Source: Pseudomonadota bacterium (lineage in GTDB: Bacteria; Pseudomonadota; Gammaproteobacteria; Burkholderiales; Burkholderiaceae_C). From it: 64,000 nucleotides of DNA. Positions within the stretch are counted from its first letter, which is position 1. The number at the start of each line of letters is the position of its first letter. The stretch covers positions 1-64,000 of the forward strand of contig CAUJHV010000045.1 of NCBI GenBank assembly GCA_963205115.1. The letters run 5' to 3'. The notes below the pieces were generated by a model. That model was not told where the DNA came from and did not search any database. It saw nothing but the letters and a program-made list of their open reading frames with translations. Position numbers and translations under genes: made by a program. This document shows positions 6,357 to 62,308 of the stretch, in pieces.

Positions 6357-6563
6357 GGCACTCCTCCAGTCTTGTGGTGTCGTGCCTCCTCGCACGCGGG
6401 CCAGACGGTGCGCCGTCTTGTGGGGCGCAGTGTGCCGCAAGGCCAGCGGTTTTGCGATGTCGCGCGGCTGGATGCCGGGCGTGATGCGAAGGGCCTTCCT
6501 TTGCGGGCCTCCACGCCTGGCGTGCTTGCGATCACTCGACCGCCGTATGTCTCACTTCGGCAA

Positions 6564-44424: not shown

Positions 44425-44479
44425 GGCACGCCAGCCGCTCGCCGAGCGGCCGGGCGCCGACCGGGGCGCTTGGCGCCGC

Positions 44480-45199: not shown

Positions 45200-45206
45200 A
45201 CGCCGC

Positions 45207-45878: not shown

Positions 45879-45956
45879 GGCGGCGGCGCCCGAGCACAGC
45901 GCAGCGGCACGGCCGCAAGGCCTCCGAGCCGCATGGCCCCATGGCCGTGGGCGAGG

Positions 45957-45990
45957 GGTGCCCCCGGCCGGGTGCTCCCGCGGGGGGACC
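45957..45990 (+). terminator. GC-rich hairpin after ybbA
   Basis: GGTGCCCCC and GGGGGGACC form an almost perfect 9-bp stem (one mismatch) around a 16-base loop, 79 bases after the ybbA stop and before ligE. No T-run follows. The block of G and C runs resembles intergenic repeats of Burkholderiales. Confidence 0.35.
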
Positions 45991-46071
45991 GCCCCGTCCC
46001 GCCTGGCAGGGGATCGCGAGCGGCCGCGCCGGCTTGCAGACTGGCGTCCTGATCTGAACCCGAGGACCGCC

Positions 46072-46977
46072 ATGAACCGTCTGCCGATCTCCCACGATTC
46101 GTCCTTCACCACGTCATCGGGGCCGGCCTGGCGCCGCCGCGGCTTCCTGGCCGCCGCGCTCGCCTGGCCCGTGCTGGGCGCGCAAGCCGCGGCGCGCGCC
46201 GGTCTGCCGATCCCGCTGGCGGGGGCGGAAGCCGACCCCGGTGTCGATCCAACTGGTTACCTGGTCAGCGAGAAGTACGACGGCGCGCGCGCCGTGTGGG
46301 ACGGCCAGCAGCTGCGCTTTCGCAGCGGCGGCCTGGTGCACGCGCCGCAGTGGTTTCGCGCCGCCTTGCCGGCCGTGGCACTGGACGGCGAACTGTGGAT
46401 GGGCCGCGGCCGCTTCGAGGCCCTCAGCGCCGCGGTGCGCCGCCACGTCCCGCGTGACGAAGAGTGGCGCGCGATCCGCTACCAGGTGTTCGATCTGCCG
46501 GCCGCACCAGGCCCCTTGGCCGCACGTGTGCGGGCGTTGGGCGAGGCGCTGCGTGCGGTGCCACCCGGCGTGGCGGCGGCCGTCGAACAGCGCCGCTTCG
46601 CCGATCGCCCGGCCTTGCAGCGCTGGTTCGATCAGGTGGTGGGTGCCGGCGGCGAAGGGCTGGTGCTGCGCAAAGCCGACGGGCCGTACGCGGCTGGGCG
46701 CGATGCCGGCTACCTCAAGCTCAAGCCGCTGGCCGATGCCGAGGCCACGGTGGTCGCCACCGAGCCCGGCAAGGGCCGGCTGCAGGGGCGCGTGGGCGCA
46801 CTGCGCGTGCGCAACGAGGCGGGGCTGGAGTTCCGTGTCGGCACGGGCCTGGACGACGCGCTGCGCGCGCGCCCTCCGGCCGTCGGCGAGCGCATCACCT
46901 ACACCTACCGCGGCCTCACGGAAAACGGCGTGCCGCGTTTTGCGAGCTTTCTGCGCGTGCGGCCGCCCGGCGTGTGA
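46072..46977 (+). CDS. ATP-dependent DNA ligase, LigE type, exported
   Basis: 301 aa from the ATG at 46072, with CGAGGA upstream. Nucleotidyltransferase motif I SEKYDGAR gives the adenylated K68; LDGELWMGRGRFE is motif III-like, GGEGLVLRK is motif IV and YLKLKPL motif V. An OB-fold follows (residues 215-300). It is a minimal ligase with no DNA-binding or zinc domain. Residues 18-40 (AWRRRGFLAAALAWPVLGAQA) form an export signal with R21-R22-R23 and F25-L26, fitting a twin-arginine (Tat) leader. LigE enzymes in other proteobacteria are known to be periplasmic and linked with DNA uptake or biofilm DNA; that role is inferred here. Confidence 0.9.
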   Translation: MNRLPISHDSSFTTSSGPAWRRRGFLAAALAWPVLGAQAAARAGLPIPLAGAEADPGVDPTGYLVSEKYDGARAVWDGQQLRFRSGGLVHAPQWFRAALPAVALDGELWMGRGRFEALSAAVRRHVPRDEEWRAIRYQVFDLPAAPGPLAARVRALGEALRAVPPGVAAAVEQRRFADRPALQRWFDQVVGAGGEGLVLRKADGPYAAGRDAGYLKLKPLADAEATVVATEPGKGRLQGRVGALRVRNEAGLEFRVGTGLDDALRARPPAVGERITYTYRGLTENGVPRFASFLRVRPPGV

Positions 46978-47004
46978 ACCGGGCCGCGCGGCGCCTGCCG
47001 GTGC

Positions 47005-48681
47005 TTACAGGACGTCTGACGCAAAGTCCGCCAGCCGCGAGCGCTCGCCGCGTGCCAGCGTCACGTGGCCGGCGTGCGGCCAGCCCTTGAAGCGATCGAC
47101 CGCAAAGGTCAGGCCCGACGAGCCTTCGGTGAGGTAGGGCGTGTCGATCTGCGCGAGGTTGCCCAGGCACACGATCTTCGTGCCGGGGCCTGCTCGCGTG
47201 ATCAGCGTCTTCATCTGCTTGGGCGTGAGGTTCTGCGCCTCGTCGATCAGCACGAACTTGTTCAGGAAGGTGCGCCCGCGCATGAAGTTCAGGCTCTTGA
47301 TCTTGATCTTGCTGCGCACCAGGTCGTTGGTGGCCGCGCGGCCCCAGTCGCCGGCGCTGGCATCGCTGCGCGCCAGCACCTCGAGGTTGTCGTCCAGCGC
47401 GCCCATCCACGGGCCCATCTTCTCTTCCTCGTTGCCGGGCAGGAAGCCGATGTCCTCACCCACGGGCACGGTCACGCGCGTGACGATGATTTCCGTGTAG
47501 CGGCGGTCGTCCAGCACCTGGCTCAGACCCGCGGCCAGTGACATCAGCGTCTTGCCGGTACCGGCCGTGCCGGCCAGCGTCACGAAATCGCAGTCCGGGT
47601 CCATCAGCAGGTTCAGCGCGAAGTTCTGTTCGCGGTTGCGCGCGGTCACGCCCCACACGGCGTTCTTGGCGTGCGTGTAGTCGCGCAGGGTCTTGAGCAC
47701 CGCGGTCTTGCCGGTGATCTCGGCCACGCGGGCGTACAGCGGCGCCGCGCCGGGTGACTCGAGGTAGACAAACTGGTTGACCAGCAGCGAAGGCACCAGC
47801 GGACCGCTGATGCGGTAGAAGGTGTTGCCACCTTGCTGCCAGCTCTCCATGGTCTTGCCGTGGCGGTCCCAGAAGTCCGCGGGCAGGGCCAGCACACCCG
47901 TGTACAGCAGGTCGCCGTCTTCGAGCGTCTTGTCGTTGAAATAGTCTTCGGCGGGCAGGCCCAGCGCGCGCGCCTTGACGCGCATGTTGATGTCCTTGGA
48001 CACCAGCACGACGTCGCGCCCGGGCTGCTGCTCGCGCAGTGACTGCACCACGCCCAGGATCTGGTTGTCGGCCTTGCCCTGCGGCAGGCTCGCGGGCAGC
48101 TTGATGTCCAGCAGCGTGGTCTGGAAGAACAGCTTGCCGGTGGCCTCGCGGTGGCCGGTCTTGGCCAGCGGGATGCCTTCCTTGGGGTCGAGCGAGCCGT
48201 CGGTGGCCAGGCCGTCGAGATCGCGGCTGACCTGGCGCGCGTTGCGCGCGACCTCGCTCATGCCCTTCTTGTGGTCGTCGAGCTCTTCCAGCGTGATCAT
48301 CGGCAGGAAGATGTCGTGCTCCGCGAAGCGGAACAGGCTCATCGGGTCGTGCATCAGCACGTTGGTGTCCAGCACGAAGAGCTTGGCCGGGCCGGTGGAC
48401 TGCCGGGCCTGGCGCACCGCGCGCGTCTGCGGGGCGGCAGGCTTGGCGGCGGCGGGCGTGGATGCGGCGCGCACGAGCGCCGCGGTGGCGACCTCGGCAG
48501 CGGCCGGCGGAACCGCCACCGGCGCCGAGGGCGGCAGCGTCTCGCGCCGCAACTGCGGCGCGGCGGCTTCGCGCGGCGCGAGGTCCTGGCCGCGCTCCAG
48601 ACGCCGGGGCGCGGCGGCCGTGCCGTAGTTTGCCGGGTCGAGGATCGCGGCTTTCTGGGTGGGGGGCTTGGGCAGTGGCAT
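47005..48681 (-). CDS. PIN domain-PhoH family ATPase
   Basis: 558 aa. Residues 98-235 are a PIN nuclease fold (KLFVLDTNVLMHDP with D-T-N, LEELDD, and VVLVSKDINMRVKA). Residues 330-558 are a PhoH/RecA-like ATPase with Walker A LAGTAGTGKTLM and Walker B VLIDEAQNLTP, then TRAGPGTKIVCLGN. The pair is the PhoH2 type (RNA-unwinding and cutting), a housekeeping gene in many bacteria. The first 95 residues are an Ala/Pro-rich low-complexity leader. It lies on the minus strand between ligE and bcp with its own promoter expected above 48681. Its C-terminus points at ligE. Confidence 0.92.
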   Translation of the reverse strand: MPLPKPPTQKAAILDPANYGTAAAPRRLERGQDLAPREAAAPQLRRETLPPSAPVAVPPAAAEVATAALVRAASTPAAAKPAAPQTRAVRQARQSTGPAKLFVLDTNVLMHDPMSLFRFAEHDIFLPMITLEELDDHKKGMSEVARNARQVSRDLDGLATDGSLDPKEGIPLAKTGHREATGKLFFQTTLLDIKLPASLPQGKADNQILGVVQSLREQQPGRDVVLVSKDINMRVKARALGLPAEDYFNDKTLEDGDLLYTGVLALPADFWDRHGKTMESWQQGGNTFYRISGPLVPSLLVNQFVYLESPGAAPLYARVAEITGKTAVLKTLRDYTHAKNAVWGVTARNREQNFALNLLMDPDCDFVTLAGTAGTGKTLMSLAAGLSQVLDDRRYTEIIVTRVTVPVGEDIGFLPGNEEEKMGPWMGALDDNLEVLARSDASAGDWGRAATNDLVRSKIKIKSLNFMRGRTFLNKFVLIDEAQNLTPKQMKTLITRAGPGTKIVCLGNLAQIDTPYLTEGSSGLTFAVDRFKGWPHAGHVTLARGERSRLADFASDVL

Positions 48682-48796
48682 GGGGTGCGTGGCCGCGGGG
48701 ATGCCGCGGCTATCGAATGACCGTGCGGGTGGCGGTGCGGGTCGTCCTGAGCAGGGCCGTTCGAACCGTCGTTGGATTGGCCGCGCAGAAACGACA

Positions 48797-48825
48797 ACGG
48801 CCGTCCCGAAGCCTGGGACGGCCGT
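48797..48825 (-). terminator. Rho-independent terminator after bcp
   Basis: A perfect 11-bp inverted repeat (ACGGCCGTCCC and GGGACGGCCGT, seven-base loop) lies 30 bases past the bcp stop. Read on the minus strand it is followed by TTGTCGTTTCT, a T-rich tail, so it fits an intrinsic terminator for bcp. Confidence 0.75.
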
Positions 48826-48855
48826 CTGTGAGGGGCAGCAACAGGGTCGGCAAGC

Positions 48856-49332
48856 TCAAGCCGCCTTCTGAAGCTCCTTGACGGCTTTGAGGACCTCGTC
48901 GACGTGACCGGCCACCTTGATGCCGCGCCACTCGGCGATGAGGACGCCGCTGGGGTCGATCAGGAAGGTGCTGCGCTCGATGCCCTTGACCTTCTTGCCG
49001 TACATGATCTTGTTCTTGACCACGCCGAACATGTGGCAGAGCTTCTCTTCGGTGTCGGCGATGAGATCGAAGGGCAGCTCGAGGTTGGCCTTGAACTTGT
49101 CGTGCGAGGACATGTTGTCGCGCGAGACGCCGAAGATCACGGCGCCGGCCTTGACAAACTCTTTGTGCTTGTCGCGGAACTGCATGGCCTCGGTCGTGCA
49201 GCCGGGCGTGGCGTCCTTGGGGTAGAAATAGAGCACGATCGCCTTGCCGCTGAAGGCTTGCGGCGAAAACTTGACGCCGCCGGTGGCAGGCGCATCGAAA
49301 TCAGGTAGGGCTTTGTTGACGATGGGTGTCAT
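48856..49332 (-). CDS. bcp: Thioredoxin-dependent peroxiredoxin Bcp
   Basis: 158 aa, AhpC/TSA fold. The peroxidatic C45 lies in TPGCTTEAMQFRD. In E. coli Bcp a resolving cysteine comes five residues on (C50); here that position is methionine (M50), so it would work as a one-cysteine enzyme or use the only other cysteine (EEKLCHMFG, about 99). The catalytic PKDATPGCT context and the downstream arginine are intact. It reduces hydroperoxides in the cytoplasm. A clear terminator follows, and a TATAAT sits about 65 bases upstream of the ATG, so it is a single-gene unit. Confidence 0.92.
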   Translation of the reverse strand: MTPIVNKALPDFDAPATGGVKFSPQAFSGKAIVLYFYPKDATPGCTTEAMQFRDKHKEFVKAGAVIFGVSRDNMSSHDKFKANLELPFDLIADTEEKLCHMFGVVKNKIMYGKKVKGIERSTFLIDPSGVLIAEWRGIKVAGHVDEVLKAVKELQKAA

Positions 49333-49397
49333 GTGCGGGCTGGGTTCGAGGCGCCAGGCCCGTGGAGTGGGACCCTCGGGCTCGGCACAATTGTTAG

Positions 49398-49403
49398 ATT
49401 ATA
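49398..49403 (-). promoter_or_regulatory. bcp: Likely -10 box of the bcp promoter
   Basis: TATAAT on the minus strand at 49398-49403, in a rare AT-rich patch about 65 bases upstream of the bcp ATG. A -35 candidate (TTTCGA or GAAAGG) is only weak. Confidence 0.55.
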
Positions 49404-49475
49404 AGTGCGGGCTTCGAAACCCTTTCGGATGGGGCCACGCCCTAGGGCCCCACGCGCCGGGCTTGCCTTCAGTGC

Positions 49476-50927
<1,452 letters not shown>

Positions 50928-50969
50928 GGATGAAGGTCCTCGTCGATCGGTCTGTTCGTTCTCGGCCGC

Positions 50970-52328
50970 TCAGGCCGACTTCAGGTGCAGCTGCACCGTC
51001 GTGCCCTGGCCGGGTGTGCTGTCGATGTCCAGCCGCCCGCCGAAGCGCTCCAGCACGCGCCGCGCCAGCGACAGGCCCACGCCCAGGCCGCGCGGCTTGG
51101 TGGTGTGGAAGGGTTTGCCGGCGCGGGCGCGCTGCGCGTCGGTCATGCCGGGTCCGTTGTCGGCCACGCTCAGCGTGACAAGGTCGCTGGCGGGCTCCCA
51201 CTCGCCGCGCACGACGATCTCGCCCGGGCGGTCCAGCGCTTCCACGGCGTTGGCCACGACGCTGGCCAGCACCTGGCCCAGCAGCAGCGGATGCCCCTGC
51301 ACGGCCGGCAGGTTGCCGGCGAGCTGGCTGACGATGCGGATGTTGCGCCGCTGGGCCTCGCGCCCGAAGGATTCGAGGCATTGGCCCACCAGCGGCGCCA
51401 GCTGCACGGCGGTGGGGGCCTCCTGCAACGGCCGGGCATAGGCCAGCAGTTCGCGCACCCAGGCTTCCAGGCGGTCGGACTGCGAGACGATGTCGGCCGC
51501 CGAGGCTTCGGCCTCGGCCAGGCTGGCGCCGGGGATGAGCTCGGCCGAGCTGCGGATGGTGGCCAGCGGGTTGCGGATGCCGTGGGCCACGGCCGCGCTC
51601 ATCTCGCCGATCACCGCCAGCGTCTCGGACTCGACCAGCTGGCGCTGCTGGCGGCGGATGGTGTTGTCCGCGCGGCGCACCAGGCCATAGAGCGCCAGGA
51701 ACAGCAGCAGGCCCGCGGCCGCTGCGCCCAGGGCCAGGTAGCCGCGCAGGTCGGCCAGCGTGGCGCGCAGCGTGCGCGGGTTCTTGTAGAACTCGACCAC
51801 CGCCAGCACGCGCGGTTCGCCCTGGGCCATGATCGGCACGTAGATCTCGACGAAGGGGTCGCGCATGTGGACCAGGCCCTGGTGCTCGGGCTTGTCGTCA
51901 TGGCCGTGGCCGTGGGGATCGACGGCCTTGCTGACCACGCCGCCGGCCAGCGCATGGTCCAGCTCCGCGTTCGGGCCGAAGCTGCGGCCCATGATCTGGC
52001 CATCGCTGGACCAGATGATGCGGCGGCTGGGGTCGTAGATGTTGGCGCGCAGCATGTCGGGCAGCGCGGCGATGTGCTTGAAGGCGACCTGCGTCTCCGC
52101 GTCCAGGCCGCGCGACGGGTCGGCGAAGTAGGCTTGCAGCGAACGCTCCACCTGCACGAGGCTCTGCACGAACTCCTTGGTCAGCGCCGCCTCCTGCCAC
52201 AGCAGCCGCTGCGTGATGAAGCGGTTGAGCAGCATGCCGATGACCAGCGCCAGGATCGCGATCGACACCAGGGCCGTGAGCGCAAACCAGCGGCTGAGGT
52301 TGAAGGGGGCGGTGGTGGATCCGTTCAT
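50970..52328 (-). CDS. Sensor histidine kinase with a His-rich periplasmic sensor
   Basis: 452 aa from the ATG at 52328 (a GTG at 52355 would add nine residues; neither start has a good ribosome site). Helix 15-36 and a second near 197-217 bound a periplasmic sensor of about 160 residues. It contains a histidine cluster, PHGHGHDDKPEHQG (H139, H141, H143, H149) and H154, that could bind a metal. The kinase core has the H box AVAHGIRNPLATIRSS (H249), N box VVANAVEAL and G boxes VADNGPGM and GLGVGLSLARRV. It should phosphorylate the NtrC-type regulator downstream. The gene reads away from the sigma factor cassette on the other strand. Confidence 0.92.
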   Translation of the reverse strand: MNGSTTAPFNLSRWFALTALVSIAILALVIGMLLNRFITQRLLWQEAALTKEFVQSLVQVERSLQAYFADPSRGLDAETQVAFKHIAALPDMLRANIYDPSRRIIWSSDGQIMGRSFGPNAELDHALAGGVVSKAVDPHGHGHDDKPEHQGLVHMRDPFVEIYVPIMAQGEPRVLAVVEFYKNPRTLRATLADLRGYLALGAAAAGLLLFLALYGLVRRADNTIRRQQRQLVESETLAVIGEMSAAVAHGIRNPLATIRSSAELIPGASLAEAEASAADIVSQSDRLEAWVRELLAYARPLQEAPTAVQLAPLVGQCLESFGREAQRRNIRIVSQLAGNLPAVQGHPLLLGQVLASVVANAVEALDRPGEIVVRGEWEPASDLVTLSVADNGPGMTDAQRARAGKPFHTTKPRGLGVGLSLARRVLERFGGRLDIDSTPGQGTTVQLHLKSA

Positions 52329-52637
52329 GGGGCGGGACAGGCGATGGGCTGCCACCGGTCACAGCAAGATTCGTGACGGGGGTGCGGGTCGCGCCGCGTA
52401 ACGTCTGCCGCGTGTGGCTTTGCGGGGCGGACAGGGCGCTTTGGCCTCCCCGCCGCCCACGTTGGCGCCGGTGCGGGCGGGTGTCTGTGTGGAGATTCGG
52501 GGGATTTGACCCGGTGGATGGTGGGGCATTTGCCCCATTGTTCCCCCAATGGACCCCACCGGCGGCCCGCCGCCCGGGCTTCGGGTCCGGGCTTACCCGC
52601 ACACGCGGCGCGGCACGGCGCTTGCGACACCCGGGGC
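52329..52637. promoter_or_regulatory. Divergent control region with two overlapping dyads
   Basis: About 310 bases separate the kinase gene (minus) and the ECF sigma gene (plus), with no protein-coding text. TGGGGCA TT TGCCCCA at 52522-52537 is a perfect 7-bp inverted repeat, and CCATTG with CAATGG at 52535-52552 is a second, overlapping the first. Both lie about 85-115 bases ahead of the sigma gene and are good operator or hairpin candidates. I find no clear sigma-54 -24/-12 pair. Confidence 0.55.
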
Positions 52638-53243
52638 ATGGTGACGCAGCAACCCCCACTCGAAACCGAAGACAGCGACGCGCGGCTCGTGGCCCGCTGC
52701 CGTGCTGGCGACGGCGCGGCCTGGACCGCCCTCGTGAACCGCTACCAGCGCCTGGTCTACGCCATCGTGCGCCGGGTCGGGCTGGACGAACACACGGCCG
52801 GCGATGTCTTTCAGGCGGTCTTTGCGCGCCTGGTCCAGCACCTGCCGCGCCTGGTCGATCCCAGCCGGCTGCAGGCCTGGATCGTGACGACCGCCAAGCG
52901 CGAGGCGCTGCTGCAGCGCCGGCTGGCGATGCGCACCGTCTCGATGACGCGTGCCGACGCCGACGACGGCGCAGACCCCGGCGCCGCCGGGCCGGACTGG
53001 GAGCCGGCGGACGACGCGCCGATCGCCGAAGCGGCGCTCGAGCACCTGCAGCAGCTGCACGTCGTGCGCGAGGGGCTCGAGCGACTCGACGCACGCTGCC
53101 GCGATCTGCTGCTGATGCTGTTCCGCGACGAGGACGAGCTGCTGTCCTACCAGGAGGTCGCCGGCCGGCTGGCCATTCCGGTGGGCAGCATCGGCCCGAC
53201 GCGTTCGCGCTGCCTGGACAAGCTGCGGCGATCGGTGGTCTGA
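52638..53243 (+). CDS. ECF-type sigma-70 family factor
   Basis: 201 aa from the ATG at 52638. Region 2 is visible (WTALVNRYQRLVYAIVRRVG, EHTAGDVFQAVFARLV) and region 4 follows (LERLDARCRDLLLMLF, SYQEVAGRLAIPVGSIGPTR). The linker between them is acidic (ADADDGADPG). ECF factors replace the main sigma factor and are held inactive by anti-sigma partners. The next gene, 66 bases on, is a 200-aa protein with no membrane helix, which may be the soluble partner. The whole set sigma factor, unknown, CHAT protease, subtilase runs in one direction. There is no anti-sigma gene of the usual zinc/membrane type. Confidence 0.92.
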   Translation: MVTQQPPLETEDSDARLVARCRAGDGAAWTALVNRYQRLVYAIVRRVGLDEHTAGDVFQAVFARLVQHLPRLVDPSRLQAWIVTTAKREALLQRRLAMRTVSMTRADADDGADPGAAGPDWEPADDAPIAEAALEHLQQLHVVREGLERLDARCRDLLLMLFRDEDELLSYQEVAGRLAIPVGSIGPTRSRCLDKLRRSVV

Positions 53244-53309
53244 GCGACGCATGTATCTGCCGCCCCCGATCGCACTCTGTATGCCGTCCGACCACCGTTG
53301 CAGCACGCC

Positions 53310-53912
53310 ATGACACCCATCGACGACCTCAGCGACGACGAATTTGCCCACCTGGTGCAACGCGCGGCGCGTCTGCCCGACGCCCCGTCTGCGCTGGTGC
53401 GCGCCGCCATCGACCTGTGGCCGGCGGCCGGGCCCGCGGCCCAGCGGCTGCTCGCAGAACCTGCCCAGCGACGGCAGCCGGAGCCTGCTGCCGCACGGCC
53501 ACTGGCCGATCTGCTCGACCGCGTCCAGCGTGCCGCCTCGCGCGTGGTGACCGCGGTCCTCAGCGCCGACAGCTGGGCACTGCCGGCCGTGGCCCACGGC
53601 CTGCGCGCGGGCCGCGCCGATACGCGGCACCTGCTGTTCAGTGCGCAGGGCCGTGACATCGACCTGCGCATCAGCCCTTCGGCGGGGCGTTATGCCTTGA
53701 CCGGGCAGGTGCTGGGGCCGGATGAGGTCGGCACGGTCGAGCTGGCCTTTGGCGCGGCCGCACCGGCGGCGGCCATGCGCCACGCGACGCTGGACGACCT
53801 GGGCGCTTTCCGGCTGGACGGCGTCGACAGCGGCCCCGTGCGGCTGACGCTGCGCCTGGGCGGCGACGAGATCGTGCTGCCGCCCATCGACGTGGGCGGC
53901 GCGCCACCCTGA
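53310..53912 (+). CDS. Unknown protein between sigma factor and CHAT protease
   Basis: 200 aa, ATG at 53310. I do not recognise it. The first 75 residues are helical and acidic at the start (MTPIDDLSDDEFAHLVQRAA). The middle is an Ala/Arg helix with RVVTAVLSADSWALPAVAHG. Residues 110-200 are beta-rich and resemble a small Ig or carboxypeptidase-regulatory-like fold (RDIDLRISPSAGRYALTG, GAFRLDGVDSGPVRLTLRLG). No signal peptide or helix for a membrane. Its place, 66 bases after the sigma gene and 20 bases before the TPR-CHAT gene, suggests it is the sigma-factor partner or the CHAT substrate; that is inference. Confidence 0.72.
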   Translation: MTPIDDLSDDEFAHLVQRAARLPDAPSALVRAAIDLWPAAGPAAQRLLAEPAQRRQPEPAAARPLADLLDRVQRAASRVVTAVLSADSWALPAVAHGLRAGRADTRHLLFSAQGRDIDLRISPSAGRYALTGQVLGPDEVGTVELAFGAAAPAAAMRHATLDDLGAFRLDGVDSGPVRLTLRLGGDEIVLPPIDVGGAPP

Positions 53913-53932
53913 CACCCTGGTCGCCACACCCC

Positions 53933-56776
53933 GTGTCCGCCTTCACCGCCGAAGCGATGGCGCGGCTGGCCGGTACCCCCGGCGCCGCGTGGCTCGAACA
54001 CGCCTGGGCGCTGAAGAACGCCTGCTACGCCGCCTGGAGCTCGGCGCCGGACCAGGTCGCGCAGCACGCCCAGGCGCTGTCGGAATGGGCCGGGCAGGCC
54101 GCTGCCCAGACCGATCTGCCGGCGGCGGTGCACGAAGAATTGCAGGCGCTGGCCGACTGGACCGGCGCCATCGCGCACATCACCCGCGGGCGCATGCAGG
54201 ACGCGATCGACGGCCTGGACCGCGCGGCCCAGGCCCTGCGGCAGCTGGGCCAGGCCGCGCCGGCGGCGCAGACGCAGGTGCCCAAGATCATGGCCCTGTC
54301 GATGCTGGGCCAGTTCGACGGGGCCGCCCGCTGCGCCGAGGCGGCGCAGCGCGAGCTGGTGGCGCTGGGCGACAGCCGCACGGCCGCCAAGGTCGGCCTG
54401 AACCTGGGCGCGCTGCACGAGCGGCGCGGCGACTACGCGCAGGCCGCGCAGCACTCGCGCACGGCGGCCGTGCTCTTCGCCCGGGCGGGCGACACGGAGC
54501 ACTCGGTGATGGCCGACATCAACCTGGCCAATGCGCTGACTTCGCTGGGTGATGTCGACGAAGCCTTGCGCATCCATGCCCGTGCGCACATGCGTGCCGG
54601 CGCGCATGGACTGCCGGTGCTGCAGGCGCTGGTGGACGAGGCCGTGGCTTTGATCCAGCTGTCGCGCGGGCAGTACCGCCAGGCGCTGGCCGGCTTCGAG
54701 ACCGCGCGCCGCTCCTACGAACGCCTGGGCATGGCGCAGCACCTGGCGATTGCCGAGAAGCAGCTGGCCGATGCCTACCTGGAGCTGCGCCTGCTGCCCG
54801 AGGCGCTGGCGCTGTTCGACCAGTCGCTGGAGCGGCTGCGCCAGCTGGATGTGCCCGACGAACAGGCCTGGACCCTGGCGCAGCGCGGCAGGACCCTGGC
54901 GCTGGGCGGCGATTGGGCGGCGGCGGGGGCGGCGCTGGCGCAGGCGGACGGCTTGTTTGCCGCGCAGGAGATCGGCGTGGGCGAAGCGGCCGTGGCCCTG
55001 GCGCGTGCCGAGCTGGCGCTGGCGGCCGGACAGCCGGACGAGGCCCGGCACCTGGCGCGCCGGGCTGCGGCGGCCTTCGATGCGGCAGCGCTTCCCGACG
55101 GTCGTGTGCGCGCCGATCTCGTGCAGGCCTGGGCCTGCCTGCGTGCCGGGCGGCTCGACGAGGCCCGCGTGCTGTTCGAGGCCACGCGCGACGCGGCAGG
55201 GCGGCTGCAGTTGCTGGCCGTGGACGTGCGTTGCCGCGTCGGCCAGGGTGTGCTGGCGCGCCTGTCGGGCGATCTGCCGGCCGCGAAGTGGGCGTTCGAA
55301 GCGGCCATCGCGCAGTTCGAGGAACAGCGGCGTGCGCTGCCGGGCGACGACCTGCGCAGCGCCTTCCTGGCCGATCACCTGCAGCCCTACCAGGAGCTGC
55401 TGCAACTGGCGCTGGCGGCATGCGAACGCCAGCCCGACGAGGCGCGCGCCGCGGCCGTGCTGGTGCAGCTGGAGCGCGTGCGCGGCCGGGGCCTGCTCGA
55501 CGGCCTGCACGGCCCGCAGCAGACCGCGGCGCAGGACGCCAGGCAGGCCGCCGAGGACGCCGAGACGGAGAGCTTGCGCAACCGCCTGCACTGGCTGCAC
55601 CGCCGCATCCAGCGTCTGCAGGACGAGGGCGACAGCGCCCATGTGCTGGTCGACGAGCGCGGCCGCGCCGAGCGCGAATTGCTCGAGCGTGCCCGGCGCG
55701 AGCGGCTGTCGTGTGCCGCGGACCAGCCGGGCGACGGATCGCCGCGCCTGGCGCAGGCCTTCGAGCCGGCTCGGCTGCAGGCGGCGCTGGCGCCCGGCGA
55801 CGCCTTGCTCGAATACGGCGTCGCGGAAGGCGAACTCTTTGCCTGCGTGGTGACCCGCGAGGGGATCACGCTGCATCGCCACCTGGCGCGCTGGGACGCG
55901 GTGCTGGAATCCCTGCGTGCCGCGCGCTTCCAGATCGAGACCCTGCGACACGGCAGCGGCACGCTGCAGGCGCACCTGCCGGCACTCTCGGCGCGCGCGC
56001 AGCGGCGGCTGCAACAGCTGCACGCGCTGGTGATGGCGCCGCTGGCGGCTCGCCTGGCGCCGTGCCGGCGCCTGCTGATCGTGCCTTGCGGCCCGCTGGG
56101 CGTGCTGCCCTTTGCGGCGCTGCATGACGGCCAGCGCAGCCTGGGCGAACACATCGACCTGGCCCTGGCGCCCAGCGCGCGGCTGGCGCTGCACGGGCTG
56201 GCGCGCCGCGCCGCGCCTGCGCAGCGCGCGCTGGTGTTGGGCGAATCCAGCCGCCTGCCGCATGCCGCGCGTGAGGCGCAGACGGTGGCGGCGCTGTTCG
56301 CCGACGGGCAGGCCTTCGTGGGCGCGCAGGCGCAGCTGGCGGTGCTGGAGCGCGAGGCCGCGCAGGCCGACGTGATCCACCTGGCCTGCCACGCGCAGTT
56401 CCGCACCGACAACCCGATGTTCTCGGCGCTGGATCTGCACGACGGTGCGCTGAGCGTGGAGCGCATCGCGGGCCTGCGCCTGCGCCCGGGCACGGTGGTG
56501 CTCAGCGCCTGCGAGACGGGCCTGTCGGCCGTGGCCGGCGACGACGAGCAGGTCGGCCTGGTGCGGGCCTTCCTGGGCGCGGGCGCCGCGCGCGTCGTGG
56601 CCAGCCTGTGGCCGGTGGACGACGGCATCACGTCCGACTTCATGTCCCGGTTCTACGGTGAGCTGCGCGCCGGGCAGTCACCCGCCCATGCCCTGCGCAC
56701 CGCGCAGGCCGCCATCCGGCAACGCCACCCGCACCCTTTCCACTGGGCCGCCTTCGTGCTGCACGGCGGCTGGTGA
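53933..56776 (+). CDS. TPR-CHAT caspase-like protease
   Basis: 947 aa, GTG start 20 bases after the previous stop. Residues about 40-470 are TPR helical repeats (AQAAQHSRTAAVLFARAGDTEHS, GQYRQALAGFETARRSYERLG and more). Residues 640-947 are a CHAT domain, with catalytic H820 in HLACHAQF and C860 in VLSACETG, the dyad of caspase-like separase relatives. The protein ends QRHPHPFHWAAFVLHGGW, a typical CHAT terminus. TPR-CHAT proteins act as proteases in prokaryotic defence and regulation (for example the Craspase of type III-E CRISPR, and gasdermin-linked proteases). No gasdermin or gRAMP is here. Neighbours are the sigma factor pair upstream and a subtilase 47 bases downstream. Confidence 0.93.
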   Translation: MSAFTAEAMARLAGTPGAAWLEHAWALKNACYAAWSSAPDQVAQHAQALSEWAGQAAAQTDLPAAVHEELQALADWTGAIAHITRGRMQDAIDGLDRAAQALRQLGQAAPAAQTQVPKIMALSMLGQFDGAARCAEAAQRELVALGDSRTAAKVGLNLGALHERRGDYAQAAQHSRTAAVLFARAGDTEHSVMADINLANALTSLGDVDEALRIHARAHMRAGAHGLPVLQALVDEAVALIQLSRGQYRQALAGFETARRSYERLGMAQHLAIAEKQLADAYLELRLLPEALALFDQSLERLRQLDVPDEQAWTLAQRGRTLALGGDWAAAGAALAQADGLFAAQEIGVGEAAVALARAELALAAGQPDEARHLARRAAAAFDAAALPDGRVRADLVQAWACLRAGRLDEARVLFEATRDAAGRLQLLAVDVRCRVGQGVLARLSGDLPAAKWAFEAAIAQFEEQRRALPGDDLRSAFLADHLQPYQELLQLALAACERQPDEARAAAVLVQLERVRGRGLLDGLHGPQQTAAQDARQAAEDAETESLRNRLHWLHRRIQRLQDEGDSAHVLVDERGRAERELLERARRERLSCAADQPGDGSPRLAQAFEPARLQAALAPGDALLEYGVAEGELFACVVTREGITLHRHLARWDAVLESLRAARFQIETLRHGSGTLQAHLPALSARAQRRLQQLHALVMAPLAARLAPCRRLLIVPCGPLGVLPFAALHDGQRSLGEHIDLALAPSARLALHGLARRAAPAQRALVLGESSRLPHAAREAQTVAALFADGQAFVGAQAQLAVLEREAAQADVIHLACHAQFRTDNPMFSALDLHDGALSVERIAGLRLRPGTVVLSACETGLSAVAGDDEQVGLVRAFLGAGAARVVASLWPVDDGITSDFMSRFYGELRAGQSPAHALRTAQAAIRQRHPHPFHWAAFVLHGGW

Positions 56777-56823
56777 GCGTGGTGCGGCCGCCGGCATTTC
56801 CACCAACAACCAGGGAGCATTCC

Positions 56824-58167
56824 ATGCCTGTCACATCTTCTCTTCGTTGGACCCGGGCCGCGCGGCGCGGTCTGCTGGCGGCCGTGTCTGTCGCCGGTCT
56901 GTGGCTGACCGCCGCCGCACCCGCCAAGGCCGAAGCCGCCGCGCGACCGGCCGACGCCGCGGTGCCGGCGGAGATCCTCGTGCGGCTGCGGCGCACCGGC
57001 GCCCTGGGCCCGCTGCTGCAGCGCTACCCGCTGCGCCTGGTGGCGCAGTTCGGCGCGCGCCCGATCTACCGGCTGGGCCTCATCGGCACGGCCGACCTCG
57101 CCGCCACGCTGCTGGCCTTGCGGCTCGAGGCGGACGTCCTGATCGCCGAGCGCAACACGCTGCACCAGAGCCCCGAGGCGCGGCGCAACAACGCCTGGGC
57201 GATCGGCACGGCGTCGGCCTACCAGGCGCAATGGGCGCCCGGCGCGATGCGGCTGGGGTCCGCGCAGGCGCTGTCGCGCGGCGCCGGGATGCGTGTGGCG
57301 GTGCTCGACACCGGCGTCGATGCGGCGCACCCCGCGCTGGCGGGGCGACTGCTGCCGGGTGTGGACCTTGTCGACGGCGACAACGACCCGTCGGAGGTCG
57401 GCCACCCGCTCACGCATCCCGCCTTTGGTCACGGCACGCACGTGGCCGGCCTGGTGGCGCTGGTCGCGCCGGCCGCACGCATCCTGCCGCTGCGCGTGCT
57501 CGACGCGCAAGGCAGCGGCAACGCCTGGGTGCTGGCCGAGGCGCTGCTGCATGCCGCGGATCCAGACCGCAACCCCGCCACCGACGACGGCGCGCACGTC
57601 GTCAACATCAGCCTGGGCAGCTACGAGCGCACACGGCTGCTCGACACGGTGGGCCGTCTGGCCAGCTGCTCGATTCCCGCCGAGGTGCTGGAGCCCCAGG
57701 ACGATTTCACCGACCCGGGCTACAACGACGACAAGGCGCGCTGCGCCGCCTGGGGTGGGGCGGTGATAGTGGCCGCGGCCGGCAACGACGCGAGCGCGTC
57801 GATCCGGCAGTACCCGGCCGCCGAAGGTGTCTATGGCCTGATCGCCGTCACCGCGACCCGCAGCGACGGGCAGCTCGCGGCGTTTGCGAACAGCGGCAAC
57901 TGGATCCGGCTGGCCGCGCCCGGCGAGGGCATCACCAGCAGCGTGCCGGGCGGCCTCTACGGCACCTGGAGCGGCAGCTCGATGGCCGCGCCGCTGGTGT
58001 CGGGCGTGGCGGCGTTGCTGCGTGCGCGCGAACCGGGCCTGAGCCCGCGCGCCGCCGTGCGGCGCCTGACGCGCAGCGGCGTGGAGATCTGCGGCCAGAA
58101 GATGCCGCGCGTGGATGCCTGGGCGGCGCTGGACGGTGCGCAGCATCAGACCGCGAGCTGCCCTTGA
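56824..58167 (+). CDS. Exported S8 family serine protease (subtilase)
   Basis: 447 aa from the ATG at 56824 with GGGAG upstream. A signal peptide (LLAAVSVAGLWLTAAAPAKA) is followed by a short propeptide-like region to about 130. The triad is D162 (VAVLDTGVD), H203 (FGHGTHVAG) and S386 (GSSMAAPLVSG), with an oxyanion N in AAAGNDAS. It is likely a periplasmic or secreted subtilisin. It follows the TPR-CHAT gene by 47 bases and probably belongs to the same transcript; the two proteases would be in different compartments, so a direct cleavage of one by the other needs a route. Four cysteines near 285-318 and the tail may form disulfides. Confidence 0.93.
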   Translation: MPVTSSLRWTRAARRGLLAAVSVAGLWLTAAAPAKAEAAARPADAAVPAEILVRLRRTGALGPLLQRYPLRLVAQFGARPIYRLGLIGTADLAATLLALRLEADVLIAERNTLHQSPEARRNNAWAIGTASAYQAQWAPGAMRLGSAQALSRGAGMRVAVLDTGVDAAHPALAGRLLPGVDLVDGDNDPSEVGHPLTHPAFGHGTHVAGLVALVAPAARILPLRVLDAQGSGNAWVLAEALLHAADPDRNPATDDGAHVVNISLGSYERTRLLDTVGRLASCSIPAEVLEPQDDFTDPGYNDDKARCAAWGGAVIVAAAGNDASASIRQYPAAEGVYGLIAVTATRSDGQLAAFANSGNWIRLAAPGEGITSSVPGGLYGTWSGSSMAAPLVSGVAALLRAREPGLSPRAAVRRLTRSGVEICGQKMPRVDAWAALDGAQHQTASCP

Positions 58168-58274
58168 TCCGCGATGGATCAGGAAGCACGTCATGAGGCC
58201 GCGATGTATCAGGCCGCGATGTCAGGCCTCTGTGGAAGGTGTTCCTTGATGGACACGCCACACGAGACGCATCC

Positions 58275-59600
58275 ATGAAACGAGTGCTGGTCTATTCGCA
58301 CGACACCTTCGGCCTGGGCAACATCCGCCGCATGCTGGAGGTGGCGCGCCACCTGGTGGCGGCGTCGCCCGCGGTCTCGGTGTTGGTGGTCACGGGCAGC
58401 CCGATGCTGCATGCGATGCGCCTGCCCCCGCGGGTGGACACCGTCAAGCTGCCCTGCCTGTCGCGCACGGTGGACGGGCTCTACGGCGCGCGGCACCTGG
58501 ACCTCTCGCTGGCGCAGACCCTGAAGCTGCGCGCCAACCTGCTGCGCAGCACGGTGGCCGATTTCGCGCCCGATCTGATCCTGGTGGACAAGAAGCCCTT
58601 CGGCGTGGAGGACGAGCTGGCCGGCGCGCTGGCCGAACTGCCCACCGGTGCCAGCCGGCCGCGCCTGGTGCTGCTGCTGCGCGACATCCTGGACAGCCCG
58701 GCCGCCACGCGTCACGTGTGGCGCAAGAACGGCTGCTTCGAAGCCATCGAGGCCTATTACGACCAGGTGCTGGTGCTGGGCTCGCCGGCGGTCTTCGACA
58801 TGCGCCTGGAATACGCTTTTCCGCCGTTTGCCGCCGCCAAGCTGCTGTTCTGCGGCTATGTGGCGCGCGAGCCCGGACAGCGTGACCGCGCCAGCGTGCG
58901 CCGCGAGTGGGGTGTGGCGCCCGGCCAGCCGCTGGTGCTGGTCACACCGGGCGGCGGTGAAGACGGCCACGCCCTGGTCAAGGCCTACCTGGATGGCCTC
59001 GAGGCCCTGCCGGCCGAACGCCGGCCGCGATCGCACATCGTCTACGGGCCGGAGATGGCCGAACCCGCGCGCGCCGCCCTGCAGCGGCAGGCGCACACGC
59101 TGCCGTCGGTCAGCGACCAGGTCTTCTGCGACGACATGATGTCGCTGATGGCCGCCGCGGACGTCGCGGTCTGCATGGGCGGCTACAACACCGTGTGCGA
59201 GCTGCTGACGCTGCGCCGGCGCGCTGTCGTCGTGCCACGCACGCGGCCCGGGCTGGAGCAGTGCATCCGCGCCGAGCGGCTGTCGGCACTGGGCCTGTTG
59301 CGCATGCTGCACCCGGAGGCCTTGCAGCCCGGGCAGCTGCTGCAGGCCGTGGCCGAGGAACTGGCCCACGCAGCCGATACCGCCGCGCCACCGGCACGGA
59401 CGGCCGCGGCGCTGGACATGCATGGCCTGGCGCGCTGCTCCGCGCAGCTGCTGGGCCATCTGGGCCTGCATGCCGATGCGCAGGCCCTCGGGCGGCCCGC
59501 GGCCGGGCGCGAAGGCGCGCGGCCTGTCGATCACCACCACAGCCGGGGTCCCGCATGGAACCGTCACGCGCAGCCGACGCACGCCCCCTCGGCGTGTTAG
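58275..59600 (+). CDS. Predicted glycosyltransferase, MurG-like family
   Basis: 441 aa from the ATG at 58275. The opening MKRVLVYSHDTFGLGNIRR and the later VTPGGGEDGH, with FCDDMMSLMAAADVAVCMGGYNTVCELLTLRR, match the GT-B fold of the uncharacterised MurG-like family (COG4671 type). The tail after 380 is Ala/His-rich and low in content, and its last 46 bases overlap the next gene. It would transfer a sugar onto a polysaccharide or lipid carrier in the cytoplasm. It opens a cluster that continues with two GT4 enzymes and a lyase. A short imperfect repeat (AGGCCGCGATGT, near 58196 and 58211) lies in the gap before it. Confidence 0.82.
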   Translation: MKRVLVYSHDTFGLGNIRRMLEVARHLVAASPAVSVLVVTGSPMLHAMRLPPRVDTVKLPCLSRTVDGLYGARHLDLSLAQTLKLRANLLRSTVADFAPDLILVDKKPFGVEDELAGALAELPTGASRPRLVLLLRDILDSPAATRHVWRKNGCFEAIEAYYDQVLVLGSPAVFDMRLEYAFPPFAAAKLLFCGYVAREPGQRDRASVRREWGVAPGQPLVLVTPGGGEDGHALVKAYLDGLEALPAERRPRSHIVYGPEMAEPARAALQRQAHTLPSVSDQVFCDDMMSLMAAADVAVCMGGYNTVCELLTLRRRAVVVPRTRPGLEQCIRAERLSALGLLRMLHPEALQPGQLLQAVAEELAHAADTAAPPARTAAALDMHGLARCSAQLLGHLGLHADAQALGRPAAGREGARPVDHHHSRGPAWNRHAQPTHAPSAC

Positions 59601-60832
59601 TCCGCATCTTTCCGAAGCTCTCCGAGACCTTCATCCTGGAGGAGATCCTGGGCCTGGAACGCCAAGGGCTGCAGCTGCGCCTGTATGCGCTGGCGCCGCC
59701 CACCGACACCGTCGTGCACCCGGCCGTCGCCCGGGTGCAGGCACCGTTGCGCACCGCGCCGCCGTTGCGGCCGGCCAGCCTGGGCGCGTATGCCCGTGAC
59801 CACCTGCGCGCGTTCGCGGACGGGCCGGGGCGCTATCTCGCGTCCTTTGCCGAGGCCTTGCGCCGCGGTCGCCGCGGATTGGCCGATTTCGCACGCGCGG
59901 GCTGGCTTTCGGCGCGGCTGCGCGAAGACGGCGTGGGCCATCTGCACAGCCATTTCATCTCCACGCCGGCCGATGTGGCGCAGCTCGCGGCGCGGCTGGC
60001 GAGCCTGCCGTTTTCGATCTCTGCGCACGCCAAGGACATCTACCTGTCGCAGGCCTACGACCTGCGGCGCCGGCTGCAGGCGGCGGCCTTCACGGTGACC
60101 TGCACGCAAGCCAACCGCGCCACGCTGTCGGCCGTGGCGCCGCAGGCGCAGATCCACCGCCTGTACCACGGCGTCGACCACCAGGTCTTCCATCCCGCGC
60201 GCCGGGTGCTGGTCGATGCCGTGCCGCTGATCGTCAGCGTGGGGCGCCTGCGTGCGAAGAAGGGGCTGGACGTGCTGATCGACGCCTGCGCGCGGCTGCG
60301 CGACCAGTCGCGGGAATTTGCCTGCGAGATCGTCGGCTACGGCCCCGAGCACGACCGGCTGCAGGCCCAGATCGAGGACCTGGGGCTGGAGGGCCAGGTG
60401 CGGCTGGTGGGCGCGCTGTCGCGCGAGCAGGTGATCGAGCGTTATGCACGTGCGGCCGTCTACGTGCAGCCGGCGCGCATTGCGGCCGACGGCGACCGCG
60501 ACGGCATCCCGAACGTGCTGCTCGAGGCCATGGCCATGGGGTTGCCGGTGGTCGCCACGCGTGTATCCGGCATCCCGGAACTGGTTGATGAAGAAGTCAA
60601 CGGCGTGCTCGTCGAACCCGACGATGCGCCCGCCCTGGCTGCCGCCATCGAGGGCCTGCTGCGGCAACCCGCGCGCGGTGTCGCCATGGCCTGCCGCGCG
60701 CGCGCCACGGTCGTCGACGGCTTCGACAACGACCGCAACCTGCGCCTGCTGTGCGAGCTGCTGGAGCAGGCGCGTCAGCGTGCGCCGGGACCGCTGGCCA
60801 CGCGCGAAGCACCCGCCTGGAGTCTGAAATGA
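59555..60832 (+). CDS. Glycosyltransferase family 4 protein
   Basis: 425 aa from the ATG at 59555, which overlaps the end of the previous gene; the frame opens further upstream but without protein-like text. FPKLSETFILEEILGLER near the start, HSHFISTPADVAQLAA, VSVGRLRAKKGLDVLIDA and GIPNVLLEAMAMGLPVVATR show a GT-B enzyme of the GT4 (exopolysaccharide) type. The E-x7-E of the donor site is seen in LEAMAMGLP. It is a close paralogue of the enzyme encoded at 60908, both with the LSETFI start, so the two probably act one after the other in one polysaccharide. Membrane-associated cytoplasmic enzyme. Confidence 0.93.
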   Translation: MEPSRAADARPLGVLVRIFPKLSETFILEEILGLERQGLQLRLYALAPPTDTVVHPAVARVQAPLRTAPPLRPASLGAYARDHLRAFADGPGRYLASFAEALRRGRRGLADFARAGWLSARLREDGVGHLHSHFISTPADVAQLAARLASLPFSISAHAKDIYLSQAYDLRRRLQAAAFTVTCTQANRATLSAVAPQAQIHRLYHGVDHQVFHPARRVLVDAVPLIVSVGRLRAKKGLDVLIDACARLRDQSREFACEIVGYGPEHDRLQAQIEDLGLEGQVRLVGALSREQVIERYARAAVYVQPARIAADGDRDGIPNVLLEAMAMGLPVVATRVSGIPELVDEEVNGVLVEPDDAPALAAAIEGLLRQPARGVAMACRARATVVDGFDNDRNLRLLCELLEQARQRAPGPLATREAPAWSLK

Positions 60833-60905
60833 AGCCCCCACGCTCACTTCGTTCGCTGCCCCCCAAGGGGGCGCTCAGTACCTTCGGAACGGCCGGGCGG
60901 TACTG
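60833..60905 (+). repeat. Burkholderiales-type intergenic repeat
   Basis: The gap holds GCCCCCACGCTCACTTCG and CTGCCCCCCAAGGGGGCGC, a motif I know scattered through genomes of this family, with a GC hairpin (CCCCC/GGGGG). A second dyad, CAGTACC (60876) and GGTACTG (60899), spans the end. Function unknown; may be a mobile repeat or a processing site within the operon. Confidence 0.6.
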
Positions 60906-60907
60906 AT

Positions 60908-62308
60908 ATGAAGGCCGGCACACATCCGCTGCTGTCTCCGCGTACGCCGGACCACGCGCCCGCGACCGCCGCCCCGACCGCGACCGATCCCGAGGCCTGC
61001 GTGGCCTACGTGATGAACGGCTTTCCGCGGCTGTCGGAGACCTTCATCGCGCACGAGATCCACCAGCTGGAGCGGGCGGGGCAGCGCCTGCTGCTGTTTG
61101 TCGTCAAGCGCGAGAACGAGCCGCACGAACACCCGGTGGTGGCCGCGATCCGCGCGCCGCGGCGTTACCTGCCGCCGGTGGGATCCCTGTCGGGCTCGAC
61201 GCTGTGGCAATGGCTGCGGCGTCACGCCCCGCGGTTTTCCACCGCCCACCGCGCGCTGTTGGTCCGCCACCCGCTGCGCTACGCCGCGACGCTGGCCGCC
61301 ACGATCGGGCTGACGGTGCGCCACTGGCCGCGCAAGGTCTTCGTCAAGGAGTTTTTGCAGGCCGGCGAGATCGCCGCGGCGGCGCTGGCCGATGGCCAGG
61401 TGCAGCACCTGCATGGCCACTTCTGCCACGGTGTGGCGACGATCACCTGGATGGCCAGCCGGCTCAGCGGCATCCCCTTCAGCTTCACCGCACACGCCAA
61501 GGACATCTACCAGGCCGAGCTGAACCCCGGCCGGCTGCTGGAGCGCAAGCTGGGCGCCGCGCGTTTCGTCGCCACCTGCACCTGCGCCAATGCCCAGGTC
61601 CTGCGCGCGCGCCACCCGCGGCCCGACGAGGTGCACACGATCTACCACGGGCTCGACACGGGCTTCTTTGCGCCGTCGCCCGCGCAACTGTCCGCGGACG
61701 CGTCGGCGGGACGGCCGCTGATCCTGTCGGTGGGGCGCCTGGTGGAAAAGAAGGGCTTCGACCAGCTCGTGGCGGCCTGCGCCGAGCTGCAGCGCCAGGG
61801 CCTGGACTTCGAGTGCCGCATCGTGGGCGAGGACGGGCCGGCGGCAGCTGCGCTGCGCGAACAGATCGCCGCGCACGGTCTGCAGGACCGCGTGCGTCTG
61901 GTGGGCGCACTCACGCAGGACCGGCTGCGCGAGGTCTACCGAGAGGCCGCGGTCTTCGCGCTGCCCTGCCAGGTCATGGCCGATGGCGACCGCGACGGTT
62001 TCCCCAACGTGCTGGCCGAGGCCATGGCCTCGGGCGTGCCGGTGGTGTCGACCGCGATCTCCGGCATTCCCGAGATGATCGACGACGGCGAGCACGGCCT
62101 GCTGGTGCCGCCGCGCGACGCGCAGGCGCTCGCGCAGGCGCTGCAGCGTGTGCTGACGCAGCCGGCCCTGCACGCGCACCTGGCGGCCGCAGGCCGCCAG
62201 CGCATCTGCGAGCGCTTCGACTCCAGCCGCACCACGCTGGCCTTGCGCGAGCTGTTCCTGGCCCAGCTGCGGCTGCGGCAGCAGGCACGCGAAGGTGCTG
62301 CGGCATGA
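60908..62308 (+). CDS. Glycosyltransferase family 4 protein
   Basis: 466 aa. AYVMNGFPRLSETFIAHEIH opens the GT-B fold; HGHFCHGVATITWMAS, LSVGRLVEKKGFDQLVAAC and FPNVLAEAMASGVPVVST complete the GT4 pattern, with the donor-site glutamates in AEAMASGVP. Residues 1-30 are an Ala/Pro-rich leader, so the true start may be the first ATG or a later one. It is a diverged copy of the upstream GT4 gene. The TGA overlaps the ATG of the heparinase-like gene (ATGA), so both are translated together. Confidence 0.92.
   Translation: MKAGTHPLLSPRTPDHAPATAAPTATDPEACVAYVMNGFPRLSETFIAHEIHQLERAGQRLLLFVVKRENEPHEHPVVAAIRAPRRYLPPVGSLSGSTLWQWLRRHAPRFSTAHRALLVRHPLRYAATLAATIGLTVRHWPRKVFVKEFLQAGEIAAAALADGQVQHLHGHFCHGVATITWMASRLSGIPFSFTAHAKDIYQAELNPGRLLERKLGAARFVATCTCANAQVLRARHPRPDEVHTIYHGLDTGFFAPSPAQLSADASAGRPLILSVGRLVEKKGFDQLVAACAELQRQGLDFECRIVGEDGPAAAALREQIAAHGLQDRVRLVGALTQDRLREVYREAAVFALPCQVMADGDRDGFPNVLAEAMASGVPVVSTAISGIPEMIDDGEHGLLVPPRDAQALAQALQRVLTQPALHAHLAAAGRQRICERFDSSRTTLALRELFLAQLRLRQQAREGAAA

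Follow-up and report, generated by a model that had tools for sequence, protein, structure and literature searches.

A conserved operon links an ECF sigma factor and a TPR-CHAT protease to a putative relative of zinc anti-sigma factors

The 64,000-nucleotide stretch analysed here (the window; positions 1 to 64,000 of contig CAUJHV010000045.1, assembly GCA_963205115.1, from a Burkholderiales bacterium) contains four open reading frames that run head to tail on the + strand between 52638 and 58167. They encode an extracytoplasmic function (ECF) sigma factor, a small middle protein, referred to below as Mid, a TPR-CHAT protease and a subtilase, in the order and the single direction reported by a preliminary description of the locus. 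We read this operon, tentatively and with confidence just short of even, as a proteolysis-controlled ECF sigma switch in which Mid holds the sigma factor and the CHAT protease releases it. The reading is supported by the co-conservation of the genes at loci chosen without regard to the partners of Mid, by a zinc motif and profile matches that relate most Mid homologues to known anti-sigma factors, by the retention of the His and Cys residues of the CHAT protease, and by a precedent from the type III-E CRISPR effector Craspase, where excerpts of the published work describe a TPR-CHAT protein cutting a sigma inhibitor (PMC10028731).

The cassette is conserved but sparse among relatives of the source organism. 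In these surveys stop-to-stop frames served as gene calls in the scripts, many of the loci (numbered with the prefix L) are contigs, and the large genome searches scored no more than the leading candidates of each genome. A search for Mid in 200 genomes of the organism's own family returned matches in nine, giving ten loci when the window is counted; one of two other genomes listed under the same genus has a Mid match and the other has none. Sigma factor, Mid, CHAT protease and subtilase genes stand in that order at nine of the ten loci, and at the tenth (L023) a contig edge cuts Mid, the fragment of which contains a stop codon. Searching named genomes with the CHAT protein gave six loci, three of them complete (L024, L026 and L027). 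Another, L028 from an Acidobacteria metagenome-assembled genome, holds a sigma factor, a CHAT and a Mid-type gene with no subtilase match within 10.5 kb, and L029 encodes a sigma factor, a CHAT protein and an S8 peptidase, the small protein between the first two not being confirmed as a Mid. The sigma factor gene adjoins Mid in the window and at L015-L022, L024, L026, L027 and L103, and at the window, L015-L022, L024, L026 and L027 the CHAT and subtilase genes lie downstream of this pair. When the window was compared with 13 other Burkholderiales-type loci, the four genes formed the largest common clusters (14, 14, 13 and 12 loci); the other clusters present in more than two of the 14 were antisense frames of the same genes, and no flanking gene cluster was common to more than two (blastp E ≤ 1e-25, within the flanks compared). 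The gene set seems to travel as a unit. Two genomes each carry two divergent copies of the whole cassette, L017 with L022 in one and L024 with L103 in the other (Ideonella sp. A 288).

Linkage beyond this group was assessed with a second profile, built from nine Mids including the motif-bearing Mid of L028. In the phylum to which the L028 organism belongs, this profile matched 26 of 297 genomes. A set of 36 further Mid loci, mainly from Acidobacteriota, comprises 31 of the 39 places found in this search and five from another search; one of the 39 is L028 itself and seven weak matches (E from 4.9e-9 upwards) were left out, while L100 and L104 are counted among the 36 though their Mid matches sit in frames with no convincing start. 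As these loci were chosen by Mid alone, linkage to sigma factor, CHAT and S8 genes was not built in. A sigma factor gene lies within 5 kb of Mid at 32 of the 36 loci, a CHAT gene at 34 and an S8 gene at 26, on the same strand as Mid in every linked case for sigma factor and CHAT and in 23 of 26 for S8. Some of the missing partners fall near contig ends (L075, L093 and L100), and at L086 neither sigma factor nor CHAT gene is found within 15 kb of Mid. The co-conservation on which the preliminary description had staked its case is thus borne out, and the recurrence of the four-gene set in relatives is more than chance. One genome (G335) contains seven Mid loci, one of them with neither sigma factor nor CHAT gene. 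Across 398 genomes of Pseudomonadota, with about seven candidates scored per genome, the single full-length match was the organism's own locus; the 45 other rows matched only the N-terminal (37) or only the C-terminal (8) part of the model. In a plasmid collection five records have a relative of the sigma factor, one of which (Nonomuraea) also has Mid and CHAT, and a Miltoncostaea record has sigma factor and S8 only.

Mid (53310 to 53912, + strand) is a 200-residue protein which, from its homologues and fold model, we regard as a putative soluble anti-sigma factor of zinc anti-sigma descent that lacks zinc ligands. Residue numbers are counted from codon 53307 (GCC), so that numbering from the true start, ATG 53310, is lower by one. 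The predicted structure comprises helices at about 10-85, a linker at about 83-106 and β-strands at 107-196, and the protein has no strongly hydrophobic stretch (the highest 19-residue mean is 1.13), in agreement with the earlier portrayal of a soluble protein with a β-rich C-terminal half. Model confidence, in predictions built from four to five sequences, has block means of 66-85 over the strands and is low (35-61) in the N-terminal half. The sole Pfam hint is to the carboxypeptidase-regulatory-like domain CarboxypepD_reg (PF13620; E = 0.21, 12.4 bits versus a cut-off of 32.3), a model that passes its cut-off in the Mid of L076 and is weak in other Mids. A Foldseek search of the model against the Protein Data Bank (PDB) gave no match at E ≤ 0.001, and the 50 rows shown were mostly generic β-sandwiches.

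The relationship of Mid to anti-sigma factors emerged from its homologues. The Mid-type protein of L028 carries HX3CX2C close to its N-terminal end and aligns with the window's Mid over its remaining length. HX3CX2C or HX4CX2C occurs in 25 of the 36 Mids, within the 75 residues before the match or in its first few residues, whereas 2,000 shuffles of these stretches averaged 0.18 occurrences and never gave more than 3. In a Pfam scan of ten Mids, nine of them motif-bearing, zf-HC2 exceeded its cut-off in L071, L077 and L078 and scored under it in L076 and L098. Searched against the PDB, a profile of 19 Mids matched the NOMO2 β-domain first, followed by RsiW (E = 7.6e-6) and by DdvA and ChrR (both about 0.02), while a profile restricted to the zinc part matched 3hug_B (7.7e-6), which we take to be RslA, DdvA (1.1e-3), RsiW (3.8e-3) and ChrR (5e-3). 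Because the motif is present in 25 of 36 members and both zf-HC2 and the profiles connect them to RsiW and other solved anti-sigma factors, most members of the Mid family are zinc-type anti-sigma proteins to which a C-terminal β-domain has been joined. The family shares common descent with known anti-sigma factors, a tie that reaches the window's Mid through its homologues. The zinc anti-sigma profile also matched the N-terminus of a 991-residue 'CHAT domain-containing protein' (PDB 8rot_B/8rw5; E = 0.019), hinting that zinc anti-sigma domains may be fused to CHAT elsewhere; a literature search by these two entry codes found no paper on that protein.

In the branch to which the window belongs the zinc motif is missing. 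It occurs in none of the 12 Burkholderiales Mids (window, L015-L022, L024, L026 and L027), nor in L103, and in the alignment the N-terminal stretch that carries it is missing from the Burkholderiales Mids. The motif has not moved into the protease, as none of 50 CHAT proteins contains it. In a CHAT tree of 49 of the 50 rows (L104, under 600 residues, was left out), made by a quick method without bootstrap and including many rows whose composition is unusual, all 15 Burkholderiales-type rows fall together in a single starred group. A neighbouring group (support 89, not starred) mixes motif-bearing L070, L071, L073 and L098 with motif-less L079-L082 and L084. The motif state requires at least four changes on this tree. 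Most simply, the window's branch lost the motif, although a tally of changes does not separate loss from gain. What remains of the N-terminal part includes a helix with a near-invariant proline (47 of 48 rows), and in L071 the proline-bearing helix pairs with the end of the RsiW domain.

The absence of the zinc stretch invites the view that the Mid of this lineage gave up sigma binding when it lost its zinc helices and now serves only as an adaptor or substrate of CHAT, the sigma factor being controlled by other means. Consistent with this, five of the six positions common to at least 46 of the 48 aligned Mids lie in the linker or the β-domain. We judge it improbable, as the post-zinc part with its proline is kept and the sigma factor gene still adjoins Mid at the 13 loci listed above. 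An invariant feature of the alignment, which omits L100 and L104 and includes the doubtful L029, is an arginine in the linker before the β-domain (residue 100, or 99 from the ATG; codon 53604 to 53606, + strand). Located in a low-confidence part of the model, it is the same residue in 48 of 48 rows (47 of 47 without L029) and is thus more constant than the zinc ligands.

The third gene (53933 to 56776, + strand) encodes a 947-residue protein with TPR_12 repeats and a CHAT domain (PF12770) at residues 690-945 (E = 6.2e-65; 219.9 bits versus a cut-off of 24). In an alignment of 50 rows H820 is present in 47 of 47 and C860 in 48 of 49 rows that have a letter at the respective position; the exception for C860, L095, is cut by a contig end. 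The dyad described earlier as intact is therefore also conserved across the family, and since the His and Cys are kept in the aligned rows, an active CHAT protease is maintained. Not every TPR-CHAT protein is linked to a sigma factor. In Azospirillum, Nostoc and Streptomyces plasmid records, which have incomplete gene tables, no sigma factor gene adjoins the CHAT gene (the Streptomyces record has one about 6 kb away), and the sigma factor profile found no match in the Azospirillum, Nostoc and Streptomyces records or in a Paraburkholderia stretch. The source genome encodes a second CHAT protein (L106:7337-8296, - strand), in a 1,925-residue frame with a weak match to the EACC1-associated caspase; the four cassette profiles found no match in the 16-kb stretch around it.

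These data can be assembled into a switch that would operate without an RNA guide. Mid would be a soluble cytoplasmic anti-sigma factor, in which the N-terminal helices, by homology the remnant of a zinc anti-sigma domain, may hold the sigma factor, while the C-terminal β-domain could serve in sensing or docking. The TPR part of the CHAT protein would sense a trigger and activate the intact His-Cys protease, which would then cut or dismantle Mid, probably within the linker that separates its helices from its β-domain, by analogy with Csx29 and Csx30 and with the proteolysis of RseA and RsiW. The freed sigma factor would transcribe its targets, and the exported subtilase may be an output of the system or a partner on the envelope side. 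A competing explanation, which we regard as rather unlikely, retains the anti-sigma role and removes the cleavage: Mid would respond to a ligand or a metal and release the sigma factor non-proteolytically, with CHAT and subtilase as outputs of the sigma factor (for example a suicide or defence arm) that leave Mid untouched. ChrR and other soluble anti-sigma factors of the zinc type respond to a signal directly, and the position of the CHAT and subtilase genes downstream of the sigma factor-Mid pair would suit outputs, as would matches to PADLOC models (E = 2.5e-25 for the subtilase; weak, 25.8 bits, for CHAT). Against this explanation, CHAT is linked to Mid as tightly as the sigma factor is (34 versus 32 of 36 loci), a linkage closer than a single output in a large regulon would be expected to show, and the zinc motif is absent from the 12 Burkholderiales Mids.

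Several observations weigh against release of the sigma factor by CHAT-mediated cleavage of Mid. The window's Mid has no zinc ligands and indeed no cysteine at all, its link to anti-sigma factors passes through its homologues, and neither Pfam nor NCBIfam yields a match over threshold for it, nor is there a family match at E ≤ 0.01. Among the motif-bearing Mids in the scan of ten, four of nine gave no zf-HC2 match at E ≤ 1. In a separate scan the L028 Mid, which has the motif, gave no Pfam match, and the nine-Mid search profile itself included one motif-bearing row (L028). The sigma factor and Mid genes are in the same reading frame, and a prediction for the two as a single chain, read through the sigma factor stop codon, gave no usable complex (mean predicted local distance difference test score 49.6, with most of the sigma part below 50). 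The proposal in the preliminary description that Mid is the sigma inhibitor is supported by homology and is more than a guess; binding of the sigma factor in this organism, whose lineage lacks the zinc ligands, and cutting by CHAT are predictions. The linker arginine, attractive as a P1 cleavage residue for its invariance, is at most a tentative candidate. Excerpts on separase describe the residue that binds the P1 arginine (PMC9729208), and the position of this arginine-binding aspartate aligns with Ser901 of the CHAT protein, in a column with no conserved Asp; the S1 position thus does not suggest arginine specificity. The arginine is also kept in L086, which has neither sigma factor nor CHAT gene in 15 kb, and in L093, which has no CHAT gene and whose contig begins 1.6 kb away. 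In Craspase the Csx30 cut sites are, according to an excerpt of PMC11106740, not conserved themselves. Some loci depart from the expected gene content: L025 has CHAT and subtilase genes with no sigma factor or Mid found in 4.8 kb upstream, L107 (a second Nonomuraea locus) has CHAT, S8 and sigma factor matches but no Mid, and L108 (Gemmatirosa) has CHAT, S8 and a weak sigma factor match, again with no Mid. Finally, no shared promoter motif was seen in 12 regions upstream of the sigma factor gene. No two-box word pair reached more than 6 of the 12, compared with maxima of 4-5 in 20 single-base shuffles, and the best pairs were plain G+C-rich words, so a conserved sigma promoter was rejected.

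The outer two genes of the cassette are readily assigned. The sigma factor (52638 to 53243, + strand; 201 residues from ATG 52638) matches Sigma70_r2 (PF04542, E = 3.3e-12) and the NCBIfam sigma70-ECF model TIGR02937 (69.1 bits versus a cut-off of 42.9). Both ECF domains are present, the protein does not extend beyond them at its C-terminus, and 17 of its 19 matches to solved structures at E ≤ 0.1 name a sigma factor. The S8 subtilase (56773 to 58167, + strand; PF00082, E = 5e-39) has 464 residues from GTG 56773, which overlaps the CHAT gene, and its catalytic triad D179/H220/S403 is kept in 13 of 13 aligned sequences. An in-frame ATG at 56824 starts what by eye resembles a signal peptide, in keeping with the export claimed for it before. 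Divergent from the sigma factor gene, at 49476-52355 (- strand), lie an AtoS/AtoC-like histidine kinase and sigma-54 response regulator, both below model cut-offs; L024 alone of the loci compared has a similar regulator frame. Downstream of the cassette, at 59402-62308, are two adjacent GT4 glycosyltransferases, most like EpsE though under the EpsE cut-off.

More broadly, the operon could be one case of a module, widespread and independent of CRISPR, whose TPR-CHAT protein senses through its TPR part and directly cleaves a descendant of zinc anti-sigma factors to fire an ECF sigma factor. In this form, which we consider possible but on balance unlikely, Craspase would be the CRISPR-captured version of the module, and an ECF class described as controlled by proteolysis without an anti-sigma factor would be explained by an overlooked one. 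If so, caspase-like proteases release sigma factors in bacteria outside CRISPR, a published ECF class said to lack an anti-sigma factor has one after all, and the cassette supplies both a concrete pair of anti-sigma factor and protease and a plausible origin, outside CRISPR, of the Craspase sigma arm. The gene set itself is already in print; the new point is that most Mid homologues are zinc-type anti-sigma proteins. A search of the open-licence literature by title and abstract found no paper on a CHAT-linked anti-sigma factor outside type III-E.

The published ECF class is ECF54 of Actinobacteria, for which section 3.3 of PMC8999054, a review citing Casas-Pastor 2021 and Huang 2015, describes conserved CHAT, subtilase and 'carboxypeptidase' genes and proposes proteolytic regulation, with no anti-sigma factor said to be involved. 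The present cassette resembles this arrangement in having CHAT and subtilase genes, both over their cut-offs (PF12770 and PF00082), beside a sigma factor gene, the likeness being one of gene context. It differs in that Mid is recognised as a relative of anti-sigma factors and in that the carboxypeptidase-regulatory-like part is a β-domain and not a peptidase. The reported 'carboxypeptidase' is probably this β-domain of Mid, and the inhibitor-like member of the ECF54 context, presumably an anti-sigma factor, seems to have been overlooked. A locus of Nonomuraea gerenzanensis (L147) has a gene row that fits this interpretation, with CHAT on the opposite strand followed by S8 (PF00082, 68.1 bits), a sigma factor (PF04542, 50.8 bits) and then a relative of Mid without the motif (E = 1.5e-13 with our own profile, no Pfam match); L107 and L108 do not fit. 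In the L147 CHAT gene (3670-6502, - strand) the TPR and CHAT regions sit in separate, overlapping frames, reflecting either a broken gene or a sequencing error. The table of PMC8999054 names a Geodermatophilus sigma factor. The proposal made there from the same gene context, that the proteases degrade the sigma factor itself and so keep the system off with no anti-sigma factor, accommodates the Mid-less L107 and L108. It is nevertheless quite improbable, given the zinc signature in 25 of 36 Mids and the matches to solved anti-sigma factors, which make it very likely that an anti-sigma factor is present at those loci.

Most Mid homologues resemble zinc anti-sigma factors such as RsiW, RslA, DdvA and ChrR in possessing an N-terminal HX3CX2C stretch and in matching their solved structures at the profile level. 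Unlike those proteins, Mid joins its zinc-type part to a soluble C-terminal β-domain and is linked to a CHAT protease, and in the window's branch the zinc ligands are gone.

The comparison with Craspase, whose components include Csx29, Csx30, Csx31 and CASP-sigma/RpoE, was the starting point of the preliminary description, which held that the same parts were present here. A TPR-CHAT protease, a small protein and an ECF sigma factor do occur together in one locus, as in type III-E systems, but the statement was too strong. No gRAMP was found (no match to RAMP PF03787 at E ≤ 0.001 in the source genome, which is 89.74% complete in 80 contigs and was the one genome searched), no guide RNA parts were seen, and positions 44000-64000 contain only two-copy direct repeats with second copies 72-90% alike, so the absence of gRAMP and array noted earlier stands within these limits. 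The CHAT protein scores 39.7 bits with the Csx29 model NF041237, against a cut-off of 300. That model matches ten of ten cassette CHAT proteins (best E 1.1e-19) and also four of five control CHATs, the best of them (E = 1.5e-16, 60.4 bits) encoded on a Nostoc plasmid with no sigma factor match around it, so the tie to Csx29 looks like generic CHAT similarity only. Mid, with 200 residues, has relatives of the RsiW/RslA/ChrR type; no chain named Csx30 occurs among the solved-structure matches of two Mid profiles, the presence of such a chain in the structure set not having been checked, and no Csx31-like gene stands in the cassette, though no search was aimed at Csx31. That the locus is a type III-E system stripped of gRAMP and CRISPR array, as the parallel set of sigma factor, small protein and TPR-CHAT might suggest, is accordingly very improbable, since the Csx29 score is low and shared with control CHATs, the relatives of Mid are zinc anti-sigma factors and the window's genome has no RAMP match. 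With gRAMP missing and such a Csx29 score, the operon cannot be called a Craspase. That it works like one is plausible by analogy, because excerpts of PMC10028731 and PMC9729208 report that the small protein of Craspase binds and inhibits the sigma factor and is cut, the same succession of events that we propose for Mid.

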